Shown: in pieces, positions 6,830 to 14,628 of the stretch | How the letters are laid out: each line of letters opens with the position of its first letter | How positions within the stretch are numbered: position 1 is the first letter of the stretch | NCBI GenBank assembly: GCA_017430945.1 | Contig: JAFRMB010000011.1 | Location: forward strand, 1-15,030 | Source of the DNA: Clostridia bacterium | Lineage (GTDB): Bacteria > Bacillota_A > Clostridia > Christensenellales > Aristaeellaceae | DNA length: 15,030 bases | Direction: 5' to 3' | Position numbers and translations under genes: made by a program | The notes under the pieces: model-generated | The model's database searches: none | Seen by the model: the letters and a program-made list of their open reading frames with translations, nothing else | What the model was told of the DNA's origin: nothing

Positions 6830-6841
6830 GTTTGCACAAAC
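6830..6841. promoter_or_regulatory. GTTTG-CA-CAAAC dyad next to the Rrf2-type operator
   Basis: A 12-bp inverted repeat with 5-bp perfect arms lies between the divergent promoters and abuts the 6841-6857 dyad by one base. It may be a second regulator site or part of an extended operator. Confidence 0.3.
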
Positions 6842-6857
6842 CTATTGACTAAATAGG
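6841..6857. promoter_or_regulatory. Putative Rrf2 operator, site 1 (Cys-rich operon promoter)
   Basis: CCTATTGACTAAATAGG has perfect 6-bp arms CCTATT/AATAGG around 5 bp. It covers the -35 element of the plus-strand promoter at 6845-6874. It shares CCTATTGA-N4-ATAGG exactly with the dyad at 9208-9224. Such a position suggests repression by blocking RNA polymerase. Confidence 0.65.
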
Positions 6858-6874
6858 ATAATAATAACTATCAT
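6845..6874 (+). promoter_or_regulatory. Promoter of the 7076-9026 operon
   Basis: TTGACT (6845-6850) and TATCAT (6869-6874) are spaced by 18 bp in an AT-rich island within GC-rich DNA. The -35 is inside the operator at 6841-6857. The 5' leader would be about 195 nt; it contains GC-rich self-complementary stretches but no recognisable riboswitch. Confidence 0.6.
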
Positions 6875-7297: not shown

Positions 7298-7753
7298 ATG
7301 AACAGAAAGCTTTTTTCCGCTTTGTCGGCAGTTGCCATACTGGCGCTGACGATCTGCGGGGCCTTCGCGGATGATACATCCGGAGCACTGACGATAGATG
7401 CTTCATCGTTGACCGACGAGCCGGCCTTTATCGACTGGATACAGGGAGACACGCCTATGCAGCTGATCGCGTTGAAAGGCGCGGACGGCGGCGTGCGTCT
7501 GGCATTCAACACCTGGCGGTCCTGCAAAGGTTCGCCCTGGGCATGGTTCGAATACCTGGGCGGCGGCAATCTGCAATGCCAGAACTGCATGCAGCTGTTC
7601 CCCGTCGGGATCGTCGGCACGGAGGAAGCATTTGGATGCAGTCCGATCACGATCCCGGCGTTCTCCGGGATCGACGGAACGGTCGTCGTCCCTGAAGCCA
7701 TACTCGCCGAAGCCGAGCCGTGGTTCAAAAACTGGAAGAGGACCGGAGAATGA
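7298..7753 (+). CDS. Exported DUF2318-type Cys protein
   Basis: 151 aa. A signal peptide covers residues 1-24, ending AFA|DD. The mature part has RLAFNTWRSCKGS (C76), CQNC (C94, C97) and FGCSPI (C114). This is the arrangement of DUF2318 domains, which occur with metal-transport membrane proteins; the usual first CxxC is here reduced to WRSC, with Trp-Arg-Ser before the single Cys. It probably binds a metal or cofactor outside the membrane. AGGGGG lies 6 nt before the ATG, overlapping the end of the upstream gene. Its stop overlaps the next start (ATGA at 7750-7753), which indicates translational coupling to the HMA/TauE-like gene. The substrate metal (copper or iron) is not settled by sequence. 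Confidence 0.78.
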   Translation: MNRKLFSALSAVAILALTICGAFADDTSGALTIDASSLTDEPAFIDWIQGDTPMQLIALKGADGGVRLAFNTWRSCKGSPWAWFEYLGGGNLQCQNCMQLFPVGIVGTEEAFGCSPITIPAFSGIDGTVVVPEAILAEAEPWFKNWKRTGE

Positions 7754-8340
7754 GCGCGAAAAAGATCACCTGGCAGGTCAGCGGTATGCACTGTCCGAAG
7801 TGCGGATCGACGGTCGTGAAGACGGTATCCGCGCTTCCGGGGATCCGCGAGGCCCGGGTCGACTGGCAGAAGGGCACTTTGACCGCGCTCTGGGACAGCC
7901 GCCTCACGTCGAAGGATGTGCTTGCCGCGCGTATCGCCGAGGCGGGCTACACGCTGGAAACGGGCGGCCATGAACGCGCATTCAGGTCGCTTGCGGTCCT
8001 GCTGGCTGCGGCCTTGTTATTCGTGATCCTTGAGCTGACCCCTTTGCGGTCCATGCTCAGCGCGTTCCCGACGGCGCAGGCAGGCATGGGCTTTACGGCG
8101 CTGTTCGCGCTGGGTCTGACGACTTCGCTGCACTGCGTGGGCATGTGCGGCGGCATCAACCTGGCGCAGAGCGCGGGCGCGGCGCAGGCGGGCCGGCGGA
8201 TAGGGCTGTCGAATCTCCGGTATAACCTGGGCAGGGTGGCCTCCTATACCGTCATCGGCGGCATCGTCGGTGTGCTGGGTCCGGTCATTCGCCTGAGTTC
8301 GGCCGTACAGCCGGTGTACAGATCGTTGCCGCAGCGTTGA
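7750..8340 (+). CDS. HMA domain plus TauE/SafE-like membrane domain, N-terminal half of a frameshifted gene
   Basis: As read, 196 aa. Residues 1-70 are a heavy-metal-associated domain with GMHCPKC (C15, C18). Then come membrane segments at about 79-96, 111-134 with the signature SLHCVGMCGGI (126-136), and 157-180. This is the sulfite-exporter TauE/SafE-like (DsbD-type, PF13386-like) family. After Q187 the reading frame degenerates (PVYRSLPQR, stop) whereas the expected continuation, GVQIVAAALMLLM, is encoded one frame away. Restoring one G at about 8310 (CAG-GCC-GGT) joins both halves into a protein of about 425 aa. The start at 7750 overlaps the DUF2318 stop. Likely role: membrane transfer of copper or another soft metal, inferred from HMA plus cupredoxin. 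Read as is, the gene is broken; a sequencing error is the main alternative. Confidence 0.8.
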   Translation: MSAKKITWQVSGMHCPKCGSTVVKTVSALPGIREARVDWQKGTLTALWDSRLTSKDVLAARIAEAGYTLETGGHERAFRSLAVLLAAALLFVILELTPLRSMLSAFPTAQAGMGFTALFALGLTTSLHCVGMCGGINLAQSAGAAQAGRRIGLSNLRYNLGRVASYTVIGGIVGVLGPVIRLSSAVQPVYRSLPQR

Positions 8341-9026
8341 TGCTGCTGATGGCGCTTCGGCTGTTGGGCGCGGGCGGGCTTTCCCTTGCCCTAACAGGGG
8401 GACTGAGGACACGGCTGATGCGCGCCGGAAGGAATTCCTCGTTGTGGATCGGCCTCATCAACGGGCTGATGCCGTGCGGTCCGCTGCAGGCGATGCAGTT
8501 GTACGCGCTGGCCACAGGCAGCTGGTGGAAGGGCGCTCTCTCCATGCTTGCGTTCAGCCTGGGCACGGTGCCGTTGATGCTGGGCTTCGGCCTCGTCAGC
8601 GGACGGCTGAACCGTCGCTTTGCCGGACCCATGCGCAAGGCATCGGGCGCGCTCGTGCTGATCATGGCGGTGGCCATGCTGACCAACGGGCTGGCGCTGG
8701 CCGGCGTGCAGCTTCGGGCGGGCGGCAGGCGATCGGCAGACGACGCAGTGATCTCCCCGGAGGTGCAGATCGTAAATTCGGAATTGGATTATCGAAGCTA
8801 CCCGGACATCACGGTGCGGGCGGGGATCCCAGTGCGCTGGACGATCCACGCGGATGCGGAACGCATCACCGGCTGCAACAACGAAATGGTCATTCCGAAA
8901 TTGGATATGCGCGTGCCGCTTTCCGAGGGGGATAACGTGGTGGAGTTCACGGCGGATGTGCCCGGCATTATCGATTACACCTGCTGGATGGGCATGCTGC
9001 ACGGTTCGATCACCGTTCATGAATGA
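8340..9026 (+). CDS. TauE/SafE-like membrane domain plus cupredoxin domain, C-terminal half of the frameshifted gene
   Basis: 228 aa from the ATG at 8340, or from a TTG at 8337; no ribosome binding site precedes either. Coding similarity continues upstream in frame to 8313, which argues against an independent start. Membrane segments lie at about 34-58 with the signature GLINGLMPCGPLQAMQLYAL (38-57), 65-88 and 101-122. A periplasm-type cupredoxin-like domain follows (about 142-228), with candidate copper ligands C179 (GCNNEMVIP), C215 and M217 (TCWMGML), M219 and H221. With the N-terminal half it forms an HMA-membrane-cupredoxin architecture: a cytosolic metal-binding head, a 6-7-helix channel, and an external copper-binding tail. 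It is the last gene of the operon. Confidence 0.8.
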   Translation: MLLMALRLLGAGGLSLALTGGLRTRLMRAGRNSSLWIGLINGLMPCGPLQAMQLYALATGSWWKGALSMLAFSLGTVPLMLGFGLVSGRLNRRFAGPMRKASGALVLIMAVAMLTNGLALAGVQLRAGGRRSADDAVISPEVQIVNSELDYRSYPDITVRAGIPVRWTIHADAERITGCNNEMVIPKLDMRVPLSEGDNVVEFTADVPGIIDYTCWMGMLHGSITVHE

Positions 9027-9199: not shown

Positions 9200-9207
9200 G
9201 ATTACAA

Positions 9208-9224
9208 CCTATTGAAATGATAGG
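9208..9224. promoter_or_regulatory. Putative Rrf2 operator, site 2 (ABC importer)
   Basis: CCTATTGAAATGATAGG; including flanks it is ACCTAT-N7-ATAGGT (9207-9225), a perfect dyad. It lies directly downstream of the -10, over the expected transcription start, a typical repressor position. It equals site 1 at all 13 conserved positions of CCTATTGA-N4-ATAGG. Confidence 0.65.
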
Positions 9225-9247
9225 TATAAGAAACGGAGGGATCCATC

Positions 9248-10003
9248 ATGAAGAAGCTCATTACAGTGATACTCGCCATCGCCATCCTCTCGGCGCTGGG
9301 CGTTTGCGCGTTTGCCGATGAAAACGTTTTGAAGGTCGGCATGGAGGGCACCTACGCGCCCTATACCTATCACGATGACAGCGGCGCGCTGACCGGCTTT
9401 GAAGTGGATGTCGCCAACGCCATCGGCGAAAAGATCGGCTATCAGGTGGAATTCGTGGAAGGTGCGTGGGATTCCCTGTTCCCGGCGCTGGATGCGGGCA
9501 CGATCGATGTGATCATGAACCAGGTGACGATCACCGATGCGCGGTTGGAGACCTATGATTTTTCAACGCCCTATGTCTTCACGCGCCCGGTGGTGATCGT
9601 CGCGGCGGACAACGAGGAGATCGGCAGCTTTGAGGATCTGAACGGAAAGAAGGCGGCCGAGGGGCTGACCTCCAACTACAACGCCATCGCCCAGAGCTAT
9701 GGCGCTGAGATCATCGGCCAGGACGTGTTCGCGCTGGCGGTGGAGCTTGTCAAGGGCGGTGAGGCCGACGCCGTGGTCAATGATGAGTTGACTTACGCCT
9801 ACTGGCAGGTGACGACCGGCGACTTCGATTCGACCAAGATCGTCGCCAGGTCGGAGGACGCCACCAGCAGCGCCGTGGTCATCCAGAAGGGACGCGACGA
9901 GCTGCGCGATGCCATCAGCGGCGCGATCGACGGGCTCCTGGCGGATGGGACCGTTTCGGCGATCTCCGAGAAGTACTTCAACATCGACGTCTCCCGGAAG
10001 TAA
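9248..10003 (+). CDS. Amino-acid ABC transporter substrate-binding protein, cystine/cysteine type
   Basis: 251 aa, family-3 solute-binding protein. Signal peptide 1-23 (CAFA|DE); the Cys at 20 is a poor lipobox (LGVC), so it is either a soluble/secreted protein or an atypical lipoprotein. Mature motifs: VGMEGTYAPYTYHDDSGALTGFEVDVANAIGEK (29-62), NQVTIT (91-96), YDFSTPYV (103-110), and GLTSNYNAIAQSYGAEI (139-155), the last being typical of the cystine-binding TcyJ/FliY branch. It captures a polar amino acid, most likely cystine, outside the membrane and hands it to the permease at 10080. GGAGGG lies 7 nt before the ATG. Context (a nearby cysteine-biosynthesis operon with a similar operator dyad) supports cystine, but specificity remains inferred. 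Confidence 0.88.
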   Translation: MKKLITVILAIAILSALGVCAFADENVLKVGMEGTYAPYTYHDDSGALTGFEVDVANAIGEKIGYQVEFVEGAWDSLFPALDAGTIDVIMNQVTITDARLETYDFSTPYVFTRPVVIVAADNEEIGSFEDLNGKKAAEGLTSNYNAIAQSYGAEIIGQDVFALAVELVKGGEADAVVNDELTYAYWQVTTGDFDSTKIVARSEDATSSAVVIQKGRDELRDAISGAIDGLLADGTVSAISEKYFNIDVSRK

Positions 10004-10023
10004 GCCGTTTGCCGAGCCGATGC

Positions 10024-10051
10024 GGGCTGCCGGAGCTGATCCCGGCAGCCC
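10024..10051 (+). terminator. Intercistronic hairpin between binding protein and permease
   Basis: GGGCTGCCGG (10024-10033) pairs perfectly with CCGGCAGCCC (10042-10051) around an 8-nt loop, followed by TTT. Placed after the first gene of an importer operon, it probably protects the binding-protein mRNA end or partly terminates, giving excess binding protein over permease. Full termination is unlikely because the T run is short. Confidence 0.6.
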
Positions 10052-10079
10052 TTTCGCGATATAGAGACGGAGTGATACT

Positions 10080-10751
10080 ATGGCTGCACTGTTGGAAACG
10101 AGAGAGGTCCAGATCGCGATCAAGGCCTTTTGGCCGATGCTGAAACAGGGGCTTATCTATTCCATACCGCTGACGTTGGTGTCCTTCACCATAGGAATGG
10201 TGATCGCGATACTGAGCGCGCTGCTGATCATCAACAGGGTCCCAATTCTCTCACAGATCATGCGCTTCTATGTGTGGGTGTTCCGCGGCACGCCCCTGCT
10301 GGTCCAGCTGTTCATCGTCTATTGGGGCATATGCAACCCGATGAAGATCAGCAACCTGGTCGCCTGTGTGATCGCCCTGTCGCTGAACGTGGGCGCTTAT
10401 GCCTCCGAGACCATCCGCGCCGCCATACTCTCCATAGACAAGGGGCAGTGGGAGGCTGGCTATTCCATCGGCATGACCTACCAGCAGGCTTTCTGGCGCA
10501 TCATCGTGCCGCAGGCCGCGAAGGTCTCCGTGCCGCCGCTATTCAACACATTCATCAGTCTGGTCAAGGATACCTCCCTCGCCTCCAACATTATGATCGC
10601 CGAGATGTTCCGCAAGGCGCAGGAGTTTGCGGCCAGCTCGCTCAGATACCTGCTCATCTACTCGGAGGCTGCGCTGATCTATCTGATGTTCTGCACGCTG
10701 TTGAACGGCCTGCAAAAGCTGTGCGAAAAGCGCCTGCGCGTGGGAAAGTGA
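10080..10751 (+). CDS. Amino-acid ABC transporter permease (HisM/TcyL type)
   Basis: 223 aa with about five membrane helices (around 22-50, 61-82, 92-115, 150-172, 188-210). The conserved FRGTPLLVQL (68-77) and the EAA loop EAGYSIGMTYQQAFWRIIVPQA (125-146), which docks on the ATPase, define a polar amino-acid permease. GGAG at 10069-10072 sets the start. It probably works as a homodimer because no second permease gene is present. It forms the membrane channel of the importer with the genes at 9248 and 10762, and is separated from the ATPase gene by 10 bp. Confidence 0.9.
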   Translation: MAALLETREVQIAIKAFWPMLKQGLIYSIPLTLVSFTIGMVIAILSALLIINRVPILSQIMRFYVWVFRGTPLLVQLFIVYWGICNPMKISNLVACVIALSLNVGAYASETIRAAILSIDKGQWEAGYSIGMTYQQAFWRIIVPQAAKVSVPPLFNTFISLVKDTSLASNIMIAEMFRKAQEFAASSLRYLLIYSEAALIYLMFCTLLNGLQKLCEKRLRVGK

Positions 10752-10761
10752 GGCGAGCGCG

Positions 10762-11505
10762 ATGTATTATGTCAAGGACATCCAAAAATCCTTCGATGGC
10801 AATCATGTGCTGAAGGGCGTCTCCCTGGACATCGAAGCGAACAAAACGACGGTCCTGGTGGGCCCATCGGGCTCCGGAAAGACCACCCTGCTGCGCTGCA
10901 TCAACCTGCTGGAAATGCCGGACAGCGGCGTCGTCCATTTGAACGGGGATGAGATCATCTTCGGAAAGGGCGCGCCGCCCAAATTCGCAGGTAGCGCGGC
11001 AAGGACGCTGCGCAGGAAGACGGGCATGGTATTCCAGAATTTCCAGCTGTTCCCTCATAAGACGGTGATCGGGAATATCATCGAAGGCCCTGTCTCTGTT
11101 CTGAAGCAGGACCGGGCGCAGGCCATTGAGGAAGCGGAAGCCGTGCTGAGAAAGGTCGGGCTCCTGGAAAAGCGGGACGCATGGCCGCGGGATCTCTCCG
11201 GGGGACAGCAGCAGCGCGTCGCCATTGCGCGGGCACTGGCCATGAAGCCCGAGCTGCTGCTGTTTGACGAGCCCACCAGCGCGCTGGATCCCGAACTGGA
11301 ATATGAGGTGCTGAGCATTATAAGGCAGCTCTGCGCTGAAAAACAGACCATCGTCATCATCACACATAAGCTTTCCTTCGCGCAGGAGGTGGCGGACAGG
11401 ATCGTCTTTTTTGATGGCGGGAGGATCTTGCGCCAGGGCACATGGGAAGAAATGAATGATGGCAGCGTGCCGCGCATCGCTCAATTCCTGAACATGCTAA
11501 GATAG
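10762..11505 (+). CDS. Amino-acid ABC transporter ATP-binding protein
   Basis: 247 aa. Walker A GPSGSGKTT (34-42), Q-loop Q92, signature LSGGQ (145-149) followed by QQRVAIARAL, Walker B LLLFDEP (165-171, catalytic E170) and H-loop H202 are all intact. Sequence type is GlnQ/HisP/TcyN. It energises the permease at 10080 in uptake of a polar amino acid, most likely cystine. GAGG at 10750-10753, overlapping the permease stop, serves as ribosome binding site. It closes the operon, which ends at the terminator at 11604. Confidence 0.92.
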   Translation: MYYVKDIQKSFDGNHVLKGVSLDIEANKTTVLVGPSGSGKTTLLRCINLLEMPDSGVVHLNGDEIIFGKGAPPKFAGSAARTLRRKTGMVFQNFQLFPHKTVIGNIIEGPVSVLKQDRAQAIEEAEAVLRKVGLLEKRDAWPRDLSGGQQQRVAIARALAMKPELLLFDEPTSALDPELEYEVLSIIRQLCAEKQTIVIITHKLSFAQEVADRIVFFDGGRILRQGTWEEMNDGSVPRIAQFLNMLR

Positions 11506-12319: not shown

Positions 12320-13243
12320 CTATACGCGCCCGTCTTCATACAGGCCTTTGCTGAAATACCGGTCTCCGCGATCCGGAAAGACGACGACGATATGGCCCCT
12401 CGCGCCGGCTTCCACCAGTTTCAGCGCAGCGGCCAGCGCGCCGCCGGAGGAAGAACCGGCGAAGATGCCCTCCCGTCTGGCGAGCAGGCGCGCACTCGCA
12501 AAGGCTTCGGTATCCGTGATCTTTATCACCCGGTCGACCAGGGAAATATCCATGGTCTCCGGAATAAAGTCGTTGCCGATGCCCTCGATGTCGTAGTCGC
12601 TGTGTTCACCGCCGCCCATGGTGGAGCCCACCGGGTCTGCCAGGATACCCTGCACGGTAGGGTCCTGTTCCTTAAGGTACTTCACGATGCCGCTGTAGGT
12701 GCCGCCACTGCCGGCGCCGGCTACGAGGAAGTCGATCTCTCCGTTGAGGTCGCGCCAGATCTCCGGGCCCGTGGTTTCGTAGTGGGCCAGCGGGTTCGCG
12801 GGGTTGTGGAACTGCCCGAGCGAGATCGCGCCGGGGATGGCCTTGCGCAGCAGATTTGCTTTCTCTTCAGCGCCCAGCATGCCGTCCTCTCTGGGCGTGT
12901 TGACGATCTCCGCGCCCAGCGCGCGCATGAGCGTCTGCTTCTCCTGACTGAACTTGGTGGGCACCACGAAGACCACACGGTAGCCCCGGTTCAGCGCTGC
13001 GAAGGCGATGCCCAGGCCGGTGTTGCCTGCGGTGGCTTCCACGATGGTCCCGCCGGGCTTGATGAGACTATCCCGCTCCGCCCAGTCGATCATGTATTTG
13101 CCGATGCGATCCTTCACGCTGCCGGACGGGTTCATCAGCTCCAGCTTGGCGTACAGGTCTGCGCCCTCGGGCAGGTCGAAGTGGTTCAGCTTTACCAGCG
13201 GCGTGTTGCCGATCATTTCCTGCGTGGATCGATAGAGTGCCAT
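12320..13243 (-). CDS. mccA: Cysteine-synthase/cystathionine-beta-synthase family PLP enzyme, MccA-like
   Basis: 307 aa, fold-type II PLP enzyme. PLP lysine K44 in NPSGSVKDR, the substrate-binding loop TAGNTG (71-76), the phosphate-binding GAGSGGT (176-182), EGIGNDF (220-226) and GSSSGG (263-268) are present. The late motif PDRGDRYFSKGLY (290-302) and the segment QFHNPANPLAHYETTGPE resemble B. subtilis MccA more than a housekeeping CysK. MccA joins homocysteine and activated serine (O-acetylserine) to make cystathionine. There are no CBS (Bateman) domains. The start is the ATG at 13243, 7 nt after AAGGAGG; an ATG at 13249 is only 1 nt from it. It begins 2 nt after the mccB stop, so translation is coupled. 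An alternative is a true O-acetylserine sulfhydrylase. Confidence 0.85.
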   Translation of the reverse strand: MALYRSTQEMIGNTPLVKLNHFDLPEGADLYAKLELMNPSGSVKDRIGKYMIDWAERDSLIKPGGTIVEATAGNTGLGIAFAALNRGYRVVFVVPTKFSQEKQTLMRALGAEIVNTPREDGMLGAEEKANLLRKAIPGAISLGQFHNPANPLAHYETTGPEIWRDLNGEIDFLVAGAGSGGTYSGIVKYLKEQDPTVQGILADPVGSTMGGGEHSDYDIEGIGNDFIPETMDISLVDRVIKITDTEAFASARLLARREGIFAGSSSGGALAAALKLVEAGARGHIVVVFPDRGDRYFSKGLYEDGRV

Positions 13244-13245
13244 GA

Positions 13246-14406
13246 TCATGCCTCCTTGCTGGCCGCAATGGCCTGGTCCAGATCTGCAATAAGGTCTTCA
13301 GCCGCCTCGATGCCGGGGGACAGGCGGATCAGGTTGTCCGATATGCCCACCTTCAAACGCAGCTCCCGCGGGATCGAAGCATGGGTCATGGTAGAGGGAT
13401 GACAGATGAGCGACTCCACGCCGCCCAGGCTCTCGGCCAGCAATATGAGCTTCAGGGATTTGAAGAATACCCTGAAGTCATGATCGTCCTTCAGGGTGAA
13501 TGCGATCATCGCGCCGCCGTTTTTGGCCTGCCTGCGGTTGACGGTGTAGCCGGGGTCACCATCCAGTCCGGGATAATGGACCCGCGCCACGGCATCGCTG
13601 GACGCGAGCCATGCCGCGATCCGCTCCGTGTTCTCCACGTGCCGATCCATGCGCACGGCCAGCGTCTTGATGCCGCGGATCAGCAGGAAGGAATCGAAGG
13701 GACCCAACACGCCGCCGGTGGCGTTCTGGATGAATGCCAGCCGCTGGGCCAGCGCTTCGGATCTCACCACCGCCAATCCGGCGACAAGGTCGCTGTGCCC
13801 ACCCAGATATTTCGTCGCGCTGTGGATGACGATGTCCGCGCCCAACTCCAGCGGCCTTTGCAGATAGGGTGTCATGAAGGTGTTGTCCACGATGTGCCAG
13901 ATACCGCGCGCCTTCGCGATGGAGGACACCATGCGCAGGTCGGTGACGGTCATCAGCGGGTTGGCAGGCGTCTCGACCAGTATCGCCCGCACGTCATCCG
14001 TGATGGCTGCCTCGATGGAAGCGATGTCAGAGGTGTCCACGTAGTCATAGGTCAGCCCGAATTGCTTGAATACCTTGTCCAGCACGCGATAGGTGCCTCC
14101 GTAGACATTGCTGGAGATCAGTATCCTGTCACCGGACTTGAACAGCTGGAGCACTGCCGTGATGGCCGCCATGCCGGAGGCGAAGGCGAACCCCGCTGTG
14201 CCGCCCTCCAGTTCCGCGATCAGCGACTCCAACGCGGCGCGGGTGGGATTGCCGGTGCGCGAATATTCCCACTTTGGATAGCCCTCCAGCTCAAACTGCC
14301 GGTAGGTCGAGGTCTGATAGATGGGTACATTGACCGAATGGGTCAGCTCATCTCCAAAGATGCCGCCGTGGATGAGCATGGATTCGATCCTGTTGTAGTT
14401 GGGCAT
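13246..14406 (-). CDS. mccB: Cystathionine gamma-lyase/synthase family PLP enzyme, MccB-like
   Basis: 386 aa, fold-type I Cys/Met metabolism PLP enzyme. Landmarks are YSRTGNPT (48-55), SGMAA (78-82 region), D174 in VDNTF (pyridine nitrogen), the PLP lysine K199 in SATKYLGGHSD, and LGGVESLICHP (328-338). With an MccA-like partner directly downstream the likely reaction is cystathionine to cysteine, 2-oxobutyrate and ammonia, the second step of reverse transsulfuration; gamma-synthase or homocysteine lyase activity is not excluded by motifs. The start is the ATG at 14406 with AAGGAG 8 nt upstream. A longer frame begins with GTG at 14442, inside the leader hairpin, and is rejected. Expression is probably set by the promoter at 14600-14628, the operator at 14582 and the cysteine attenuator at 14436-14566. 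Confidence 0.9.
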   Translation of the reverse strand: MPNYNRIESMLIHGGIFGDELTHSVNVPIYQTSTYRQFELEGYPKWEYSRTGNPTRAALESLIAELEGGTAGFAFASGMAAITAVLQLFKSGDRILISSNVYGGTYRVLDKVFKQFGLTYDYVDTSDIASIEAAITDDVRAILVETPANPLMTVTDLRMVSSIAKARGIWHIVDNTFMTPYLQRPLELGADIVIHSATKYLGGHSDLVAGLAVVRSEALAQRLAFIQNATGGVLGPFDSFLLIRGIKTLAVRMDRHVENTERIAAWLASSDAVARVHYPGLDGDPGYTVNRRQAKNGGAMIAFTLKDDHDFRVFFKSLKLILLAESLGGVESLICHPSTMTHASIPRELRLKVGISDNLIRLSPGIEAAEDLIADLDQAIAASKEA

Positions 14407-14435
14407 TGGATTGACTCCTTTCGATCTGGATACAG

Positions 14436-14482
14436 AAAACACCCGCCGCTTGTTCCGATAGGATCCAGGCAGCGGGTGTTTT
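14436..14482 (-). terminator. Attenuator terminator hairpin in the mccB leader
   Basis: On the minus strand AAAACACCCGC (14472-14482) pairs perfectly with GCGGGTGTTTT (14436-14446). In RNA the stem continues through a G-U wobble and two G-C pairs to 14 bp around a 19-nt loop. The wobble would be a C-A mismatch on the other strand, so the hairpin is optimal in mccB-sense RNA. The 3' arm ends in TTTTCTGT. It lies 30 nt before the mccB ATG, within the transcript, so it can act only as an attenuator or processing signal. Confidence 0.75.
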
Positions 14483-14527
14483 GACGATCTGTTTCCGTCG
14501 TCATTGCATGTAAAGCGACCCTCTGCC
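14468..14527 (-). promoter_or_regulatory. Antiterminator pairing of the cysteine attenuator
   Basis: Leader segment GGCAGAGGGT (minus strand, 14527 to 14518) can pair with ACCCGCTGCC (14477 to 14468) at 9 of 10 positions; the single mismatch is A14522 with G14473 (plus-strand numbering). The second segment is the left arm and inner stem of the terminator, so the two structures exclude each other. The first segment is codons 14-17 of the leader peptide, just after the Cys run, so a ribosome stalled on Cys codons would leave it free and favour antitermination. A weak 5-bp competitor (TCTGC at codons 2-3 with GCAGA) could serve as segment 1. Confidence 0.7.
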
Positions 14528-14566
14528 AGGGCATTTACAACAACAGTCGACGGGATTGCAGATCAT
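14501..14566 (-). CDS. Cysteine-rich attenuator leader peptide (21 aa)
   Basis: ATG at 14566, stop TGA at 14501-14503. The peptide begins MICNPVDCCCKCPG and ends LYMQ. It has 5 Cys in 21 residues, at positions 3, 8, 9, 10 and 12, including three consecutive TGT codons (14537-14545). GAGGTG (14572-14577) is 5 nt before the ATG, better than many real genes have. It starts about 27 nt after the predicted transcription start of the mccBA operon, whose product is cysteine. Polycysteine upstream ORFs act as cysteine-responsive attenuators in mycobacteria (established), where they are leaderless; this one has a Shine-Dalgarno and a classic alternative hairpin. Function is inferred from architecture; the peptide itself probably has none. 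Confidence 0.8.
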   Translation of the reverse strand: MICNPVDCCCKCPGRGSLYMQ

Positions 14567-14581
14567 GTTCGCACCTCATTA

Positions 14582-14598
14582 CCAATTCAATTAGTAGG
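14582..14598. promoter_or_regulatory. Putative Rrf2 operator, site 3 (mccBA)
   Basis: Read on the minus strand, CCTACTAATTGAATTGG is the same 17-bp length as sites 1 and 2 and agrees at 10 of the 13 positions shared by them. With flanks TACC and GGTA it is a partial dyad. It starts 1 bp after the -10, over the expected transcription start, the same geometry as site 2. Confidence 0.55.
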
Positions 14599-14599
14599 T

Positions 14600-14628
14600 A
14601 TTATAACCGATGGGATATCGTTTGTCAA
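14600..14628 (-). promoter_or_regulatory. Consensus promoter of the mccB-mccA operon
   Basis: On the minus strand, perfect TTGACA (14623-14628) and perfect TATAAT (14600-14605) are separated by 17 bp. Such a strong promoter suggests that output is limited afterwards, by the operator at 14582 and the attenuator at 14436-14566. Expected transcription start is near 14593. Confidence 0.9.

Follow-up and report, generated by a model that had tools for sequence, protein, structure and literature searches.

A predicted cysteine-codon attenuator upstream of an mccB-like operon, and Cys-codon leaders at related loci

The DNA upstream of an mccB-like operon in the 15,030-nucleotide stretch analyzed here (the window) very probably acts as a ribosome-mediated transcription attenuator that senses the charging of Cys-tRNA, as judged from sequence comparison and RNA folding. 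An earlier note on this DNA had proposed a 2:3 / 3:4 cysteine attenuator at this place, and the proposal has survived the checks that could be run, i.e. conservation of the pairings and of the Cys codons, and folding of the nascent RNA. Computation establishes the anatomy of the leader, its comparative conservation, and its mutually exclusive folds. The window has a leader ORF that should be translatable and contains a run of the regulatory codon (Shine-Dalgarno motif, ATG, and Cys run), an intrinsic terminator after this ORF (a 14-bp stem with TTTT), and an antiterminator that is exclusive with the terminator and is predicted to form when the A-site is at the tested codons up to 10.

Leader anatomy and downstream genes

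All elements of the leader lie on the minus strand (Table 1). The perfect promoter, the Cys-rich leader with its Shine-Dalgarno motif, the complementarity of codons 14-17 to the left arm of a hairpin, the 14-bp hairpin ending in TTTT, and the mccB ribosome binding site were all found where the earlier note had placed them. Similarly placed promoters also occur in L001, L002, L004, L005, and L107 (L-numbers designate loci). The leader ORF comprises 21 codons, with ATG at 14566, TGA at 14503-14501, and Cys at codons 3, 8, 9, 10, and 12. Segment 2 (14527-14518) is complementary at 9/10 positions to ACCCGCTGCC (14477-14468). The terminator arms (14482-14469 / 14449-14436) form 14 bp when basal A-U pairs are counted, and the U-tract is short, with TTTT lying in part within the stem. 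This hairpin is absent from the listing of a simple terminator scan of the window, because the scan takes only loops of 3-8 nt and needs five T. The leader region (14590-14424) is more stable than 200/200 dinucleotide shuffles (z -5.17).

Table 1. Features of the leader and operon in the window.
Feature	Coordinates	Strand	Basis
Sigma-70 type promoter TTGACA-17-TATAAT	14600..14628	-	12/12 consensus positions
Imperfect inverted repeat ACCTACTAATTGAATTGGTA, candidate operator	14580..14599	-	directly after -10 box
Leader-ORF Shine-Dalgarno GAGG	14574..14577	-	sequence
Leader ORF MICNPVDCCCKCPGRGSLYMQ, including stop	14501..14566	-	sequence; Cys leaders in relatives
Cys codons 8-10 (TGT TGT TGT), predicted stall site	14537..14545	-	nascent-RNA folding, codon usage
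1:2 leader hairpin, Cys codons paired with region around leader stop codon	14495..14554	-	MFE
Segment 2, antiterminator 5' strand GGCAGAGGGT, codons 14-17	14518..14527	-	9 pairs with segment 3
Segment 3, terminator left arm	14469..14482	-	pairing with segment 2 extends to 14468
Segment 4, terminator right arm, continuing into TTTT	14436..14449	-	folding, alignment
mccB ribosome binding site AAGGAG	14415..14420	-	ahead of ATG 14406
mccB-like gene, Cys/Met metabolism PLP enzyme	13246..14406	-	PF01053, 482 bits
mccA/cysK-like gene, cysteine synthase / cystathionine beta-synthase type	12320..13243	-	TIGR01136, PF00291

The best NCBIfam model for the mccB-like protein is PRK07671, a bifunctional cystathionine gamma-lyase/homocysteine desulfhydrase (532 bits; cut-off 594). 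The mccA/cysK-like protein, which also matches PF00291, scores 333.8 bits against TIGR01136 (cut-off 344.15). Because both best family matches fall below their cut-offs, the operon identity mccB-mccA, read from sequence, is likely, not certain. The nearest mccB to that of the window is L001 (84% identity), in a Clostridia MAG.

Conserved pairings and the predicted switch

The window was aligned with its close relatives L001, L002, L003, L005, and L107 (alignment A1), the more distant L004 and L091 being excluded. For the 2:3 pairing, nine pairs were counted, leaving out a constant central mismatch (A in segment 2 versus G in the arm), and 54/54 cells are paired, versus 25.9-68.5% in slid versions. 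Seven of the nine pairs are invariant and the covariation score was reached by 353/500 shuffles; because the pairs are nearly invariant and shuffles match the score, this is conservation, not covariation. In the terminator (3:4), 86.8% of the cells are paired (slid versions 36.5-49.0%) and 5/19 pairs are altered on both sides; among 500 shuffles, covariation was reached by 4, the count of changed pairs by 43, and the number of further pair types by 187. In column 117, for instance, A is found in two sequences and G in four, the terminator partner being U or C accordingly, and this column also remains paired with segment 2. The leader hairpin with its outer helix is paired in 74.4% of cells (slid versions 35.0-49.7%), and 8/30 pairs have changes in both partners, a result attained by 1 and 2 of the 500 shuffles; a slide of +3 also gives 8 changed pairs, and one of +2 gives more pair types. 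The relatives likewise have a GC-rich stem with a T-tract behind it, and the weakest leader of the six close sequences is that of L002, with two Cys codons. Of the features that the earlier note had suggested looking for in relatives, the close sequences retain the Cys codons, the hairpin, and the two pairings. Terminator and leader hairpin show compensatory changes, but the 2:3 pairing shows little covariation.

The nascent window RNA was folded up to the end of the left arm, with a ribosome covering it to 12 nt past the first base of the A-site codon, taken as its footprint. Eleven A-site codons were folded (3, 8, 9, 10, 11, 12, 14, 16, 18, 20, and 22). The 2:3 pairing reached 7.0 bp with the A-site at codon 3, ~7.9 at codons 8-10, 3.7 at codon 11, and 1.9 at codon 12, and it was absent (0 bp) at codons 14, 16, 18, 20, and 22 and without a ribosome. 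The predicted antiterminator and terminator states were thus both obtained in the nascent RNA, as the earlier note had anticipated. It had placed the stall at codons 8-12: codons 8-10 stand, with ~7.9 bp of 2:3 pairing, but codon 12 does not (1.9 bp). Because a ribosome at codon 12 masks most of segment 2, codons 8-10 are the likely stall site. When the right arm was present, the terminator had 13.2-13.6 bp in every folded state. Since it prevails in all states in which the right arm is complete, the switch has to be kinetic, and kinetic decisions are typical of classical attenuators.

In the proposed mechanism, stalling, premature termination, and the response to cysteine are predicted steps. 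Transcription would start ~27 nt ahead of the leader ORF, judging from the promoter position. When Cys-tRNA(Cys) is short, the ribosome would wait at Cys codons 8-10, its leading edge stopping just ahead of segment 2 and hairpin 1:2 being held open; segment 2 would then pair with segment 3, 3:4 would come too late, and mccB-mccA would be transcribed. With enough Cys-tRNA, the ribosome would advance over segment 2, 3:4 would form, and transcription would end at ~14432.

Cys leaders at other loci

An mccB protein search of species genomes yielded 218 confirmed loci, the best 80 of which were used. A Cys leader was defined as an ORF of 8-60 codons that is preceded by a Shine-Dalgarno motif, has three or more Cys within a stretch of five codons, and lies at most 1700 nt upstream; this criterion and the 1700-nt limit were fixed after the first listings, and the identical rule was applied to the reverse strand and to shuffles. 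Cys leaders were found in 30/81 loci (the window plus the 80) on the forward strand and in 1/81 on the reverse strand, and shuffles of the 81 upstream stretches gave a mean of 1.55 and a maximum of 4 such loci in 20 rounds. No residue besides Cys has a comparable forward bias in these 81 loci (forward/reverse loci: Ser 30/42, Leu 25/21, Arg 24/34, Ala 15/14, Ile 13/2, Val 7/2, Asp 4/0, and Tyr 4/0). The presence of Cys leaders before mccB or the operon head is not chance.

Position relative to the operon was assessed in 89 loci (the window, L001-L080, and L091-L098), classed as 40 with mccB first and 49 with mccB behind another gene; some are repeats (L014/L094, L020/L095, and L036/L096 are alike upstream), which inflate the 49 more than the 40. 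A leader lies directly upstream in 13/40 mccB-first loci (300 shuffles: mean 0.18, maximum 2), among which leaders of other residues number at most 7 (Ala), and in 0/49 of the others. Many of the 49 have a leader ~1.1 kb upstream, ahead of the operon head gene. The four head genes tested (L014, L030, L034, and L049) encode LCM-type methyltransferases (PF04072), and in L040 luxS (PF02664) lies between the head gene and mccB.

By label, the 30 loci comprise Clostridia and relatives (Ruminococcus, Ruminiclostridium, and MAGs), six Treponema/Spirochaetes loci, four Succinivibrio/Succinatimonas loci, and one MAG labelled Alphaproteobacteria. Because several are closely related (L049/L056/L057/L065, L039/L050/L054, and L017/L021), the count of 30 overstates the number of independent cases. 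It leaves out L002 (two Cys codons), L008, L015, L011, L027, L028, and L046, judged by eye or by looser rules, as well as L014 and other leaders more than 1700 nt away; L091, L098, and L107 came from genome searches. Among the 28 genomes of the nearest genus, 6 have a close mccB, with a leader in L081, L082, L083, and L107 (L081-L083 are L001-L003 again, and L082/L002 has two Cys codons). The mccB of L106 lies behind a cystine-transporter-type ATPase gene and that of L108 behind a luxS-looking gene (by eye), neither with a leader directly upstream. Candidate leaders in isolates are found in Ruminococcus flavefaciens 007c (L064, arm complementarity p 0.040), Ruminiclostridium sufflavum DSM 19573 (L034, p 0.092), and Succinivibrio dextrinosolvens DSM 3072 (L065, without a clear U-tract). 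In L049, L056, L057, and L065, the leader lies at about -1100 from mccB and ends in six or five Cys codons directly before the stop.

By the strict criterion, leaders lie ahead of cysK in 2/30 loci of one genus (L113 and L115), and ahead of cysS in 0/30 loci of the nearest genus (27 genomes over the cut-off, three of the 30 loci being weak matches). The pattern TGYTGYTGY-N9-GGCRGAGG matched 7 of 250 genomes from the family of G001, versus 9 matches when read backwards; of the 7, three have it in mccB leaders (G001, G005, and G029) and four inside longer reading frames. The reading of the motif as a scattered repeat was rejected, the motif being tied to mccB by this DNA pattern. From their sequences, Cys-codon attenuators of this kind are probably unusually widespread, in unrelated anaerobes that include Treponema and Succinivibrio candidates.

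Complementarity beyond composition was tested in 32 hand-picked leaders, with the sequence that follows the first run Cys codon shuffled by dinucleotides as the control. In L107, L098, and L026, the automatic terminator finder had settled on an incorrect frame or, where two hairpins were present, on the second, and it missed L002, L003, L005, and L091; the left arms were hand-chosen from the terminators. The own terminator arm was bound at p<0.05 in 19/32 leaders (1.6 expected), Treponema included, and clearly so in L113, L030, L011, L019, and L008. The other 13 (p>=0.05) are the window (0.085), L010, L020, L022, L024, L026, L034, L048, L050, L059, L072, L091, and L098; when the arm is extended by one base and the stretch shortened, the window gives p 0.018. 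Foreign arms binding at least as well as the own arm numbered 0-18 of 26-31. An earlier version of the test covered 28 of 32 rows (4 skipped), with 18 at p<0.05; L039 was left out of the 32-leader test (p 0.432 earlier) and L027 was only in the earlier one (p 0.044). In 23/32 leaders, the complementary strand begins 10-19 nt past the first base of the final Cys codon of the run, and in the window the offset is +7, counted from codon 12. In genome G261, mccB and cysK operons are divergent, each with its own Cys leader, and their segment-2 sequences differ. The second of these, before cysK (L113:1272-1368, plus strand), has its own segment 2 and terminator, GAAATCTCCTG being 11/11 complementary to CAGGAGATTTC.

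In a folding test on 33 hand-picked leaders, run without a shuffle control and counting any upstream partner of the arm, 28/33 had at least 5 bp at some Cys codon and fewer than 5 at the stop, the exceptions being L030, L048, L050, L072, and L098. The left arm gained at least 5 upstream bp even without a ribosome in 23/33; in L001, L002, L005, and L107, at least 5 bp persisted with the ribosome well past the Cys run, and L091 had fewer than 4 bp at its CCCC run. By this looser measure, the window has 8.7 bp without a ribosome and 5.8 at codon 12. Because arm partners form without a ribosome or past the run, a 1:2 protector is not a general feature of these leaders, nor is a sharp release.

Leaders also prefer TGT, the codon that their genes avoid. 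Eight leaders (the close set plus L004 and L091) contain 24 TGT and 12 TGC, versus TGT/TGC of 7/37 in the window genes (Fisher p 6.7e-6) and 26/91 in the long ORFs of seven loci (p 1.6e-6). Part of this bias may reflect pairing with the sequence around the stop codon.

Translational attenuation, in which the leader would govern how accessible the mccB ribosome binding site is or would act through coupled translation, is an unlikely alternative to the transcriptional switch. It could accommodate L049, L056, and L065, the three Succinivibrio/Succinatimonas leaders read, in which Cys runs are accompanied by a hairpin without a clear U-tract terminator. Mycobacterial cysteine genes are under translation attenuation according to the accessible part of one report (PMC13236596). 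In the window, however, the hairpin ends ~15 nt (by position) before the AAGGAG at 14420-14415, and the recurrence in relatives of the GC-rich stem with T-tract likewise argues for termination.

We consider it less likely still that the leader works not by counting codons but through a functional Cys-rich peptide that binds metal, acts in redox, or arrests the ribosome to sense free cysteine or sulfide. Dense CCC/CxC motifs, and a PGRG after the run in 5/6 close sequences, are what such a peptide might look like, but the PGRG codons are segment 2 and are preserved at the nucleotide level, and hardly anything but the Cys run is common to leaders of different groups. Control by a T-box, SAM, or other ligand riboswitch, with the Cys ORF incidental, is highly improbable: although Firmicutes usually control cysteine genes through T-boxes and CymR, the window has no Rfam match at E<=1, T-box covariance model included, and 40 loci scanned whole at the gathering score gave no T-box or SAM match, the only three matches being to a tRNA (L027) and to AdoCbl-II riboswitches (L016 and L037, minus strand).

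A candidate operator, and comparison with known attenuators

The cysteine attenuator may be combined with control of initiation. The ACCTA..TAGGT inverted repeat behind the -10 box (14580-14599, minus strand) has counterparts on the plus strand at 9207-9226, preceding cystine-transporter-type (tcy-like) genes, and at 6840-6858, ~260 nt upstream of a gene for an Rrf2-family regulator (TIGR00738 over the cut-off, IscR and CymR models below theirs). A search with a pattern derived from the 9207 site itself, allowing up to 3 mismatches on both strands, gave 7 matches, comprising the three repeats, each counted twice, and a further site. Shuffles averaged 0.71 matches, and none of 200 reached 7. 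This sequence pattern suggests an additional repressor at the mccB leader promoter, the repeats being a candidate operator of the Rrf2-family regulator. The cystine-type ABC transporter genes near the mccB operon (binding protein, permease, and ATPase; 9248-11505, plus strand) have cystine transporters as best NCBIfam models, all below cut-off. At 7298-9026 (plus strand), an FtrD-like frame, a middle frame, and a DsbD-like frame lie in a row; the start of the middle frame presumably resembles a heavy-metal-binding domain, and around 8337-8340 the second and third, read in different frames, share a few bases.

Classical attenuators are those of the trp, his, and leu operons of enterobacteria, and T-boxes are usual in Clostridia. 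The present leader resembles the former in having an ORF rich in the codon for the pathway product and alternative 2:3 antiterminator and 3:4 terminator folds, and differs in its Cys codon and in a host close to Clostridia MAGs. The Cys ORFs of mycobacteria are reportedly termed leaderless in the title of a 2020 paper by Canestrari. Runs of Cys codons upstream of cysteine genes are shared with the mycobacterial and actinobacterial leaders, whereas the window, unlike the mycobacterial poly-Cys attenuator, has a Shine-Dalgarno motif, a -10 box 34 nt before the ATG, and an intrinsic terminator. In the accessible part of Seliverstov 2005 (PMC1262725), cys operons of actinobacteria, mycobacteria included, have leader ORFs with Cys runs and no conserved terminator. 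A closer counterpart is uORFC-8-2, a uORF with tandem Cys codons and an intrinsic terminator before cysS in Rhodobacterales, for which ribosome-mediated attenuation has been proposed; as far as the available text of that paper goes, it has two conserved Cys codons and is reported only ahead of cysS in Rhodobacterales (PMC8632094). The leaders described here share the Cys-codon uORF with intrinsic terminator, and differ in preceding mccB-type/cysK operons and in occurring in other groups, the loci nearest to the window being in Clostridia MAGs. Bacilli have histidine leader peptides at hisS and hisZ genes, according to the portion of PMC2965389 that is available; these too are leader-peptide attenuators in Firmicutes that stand in for a T-box, but for histidine and at hisS/hisZ.

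The earlier note had called a cysteine attenuator of this type in a Clostridia-like genome undescribed. This holds in part: a Cys uORF with terminator was already published before cysS (PMC8632094, as far as its text is available), whereas a search of the literature, largely outside subscription papers, found no Cys attenuators described for Clostridia, Treponema, or Succinivibrio. The Clostridia-like scope was too narrow, as Treponema, Succinivibrio, and other loci also have such leaders. The mechanism is already known in kind; what is new is a Cys leader with a terminator before these operons and in these groups.

More broadly, the chances seem evenly balanced that control by Cys-codon attenuators is widespread among homocysteine-to-cysteine operons (LCM-type methyltransferase, luxS, mccB, and mccA) in gut anaerobes of several phyla and arose in part independently, and that in the window it is layered on an Rrf2-family operator so that initiation and termination would both read cysteine status. 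The spacing between segment 2 and the final Cys codon of the run resembles a ribosome footprint, which would offer a simple rule for finding leader attenuators. If the attenuator reading is true, charged tRNA-Cys, via the translating ribosome, would be the sensor of a main cysteine operon in rumen and gut anaerobes.
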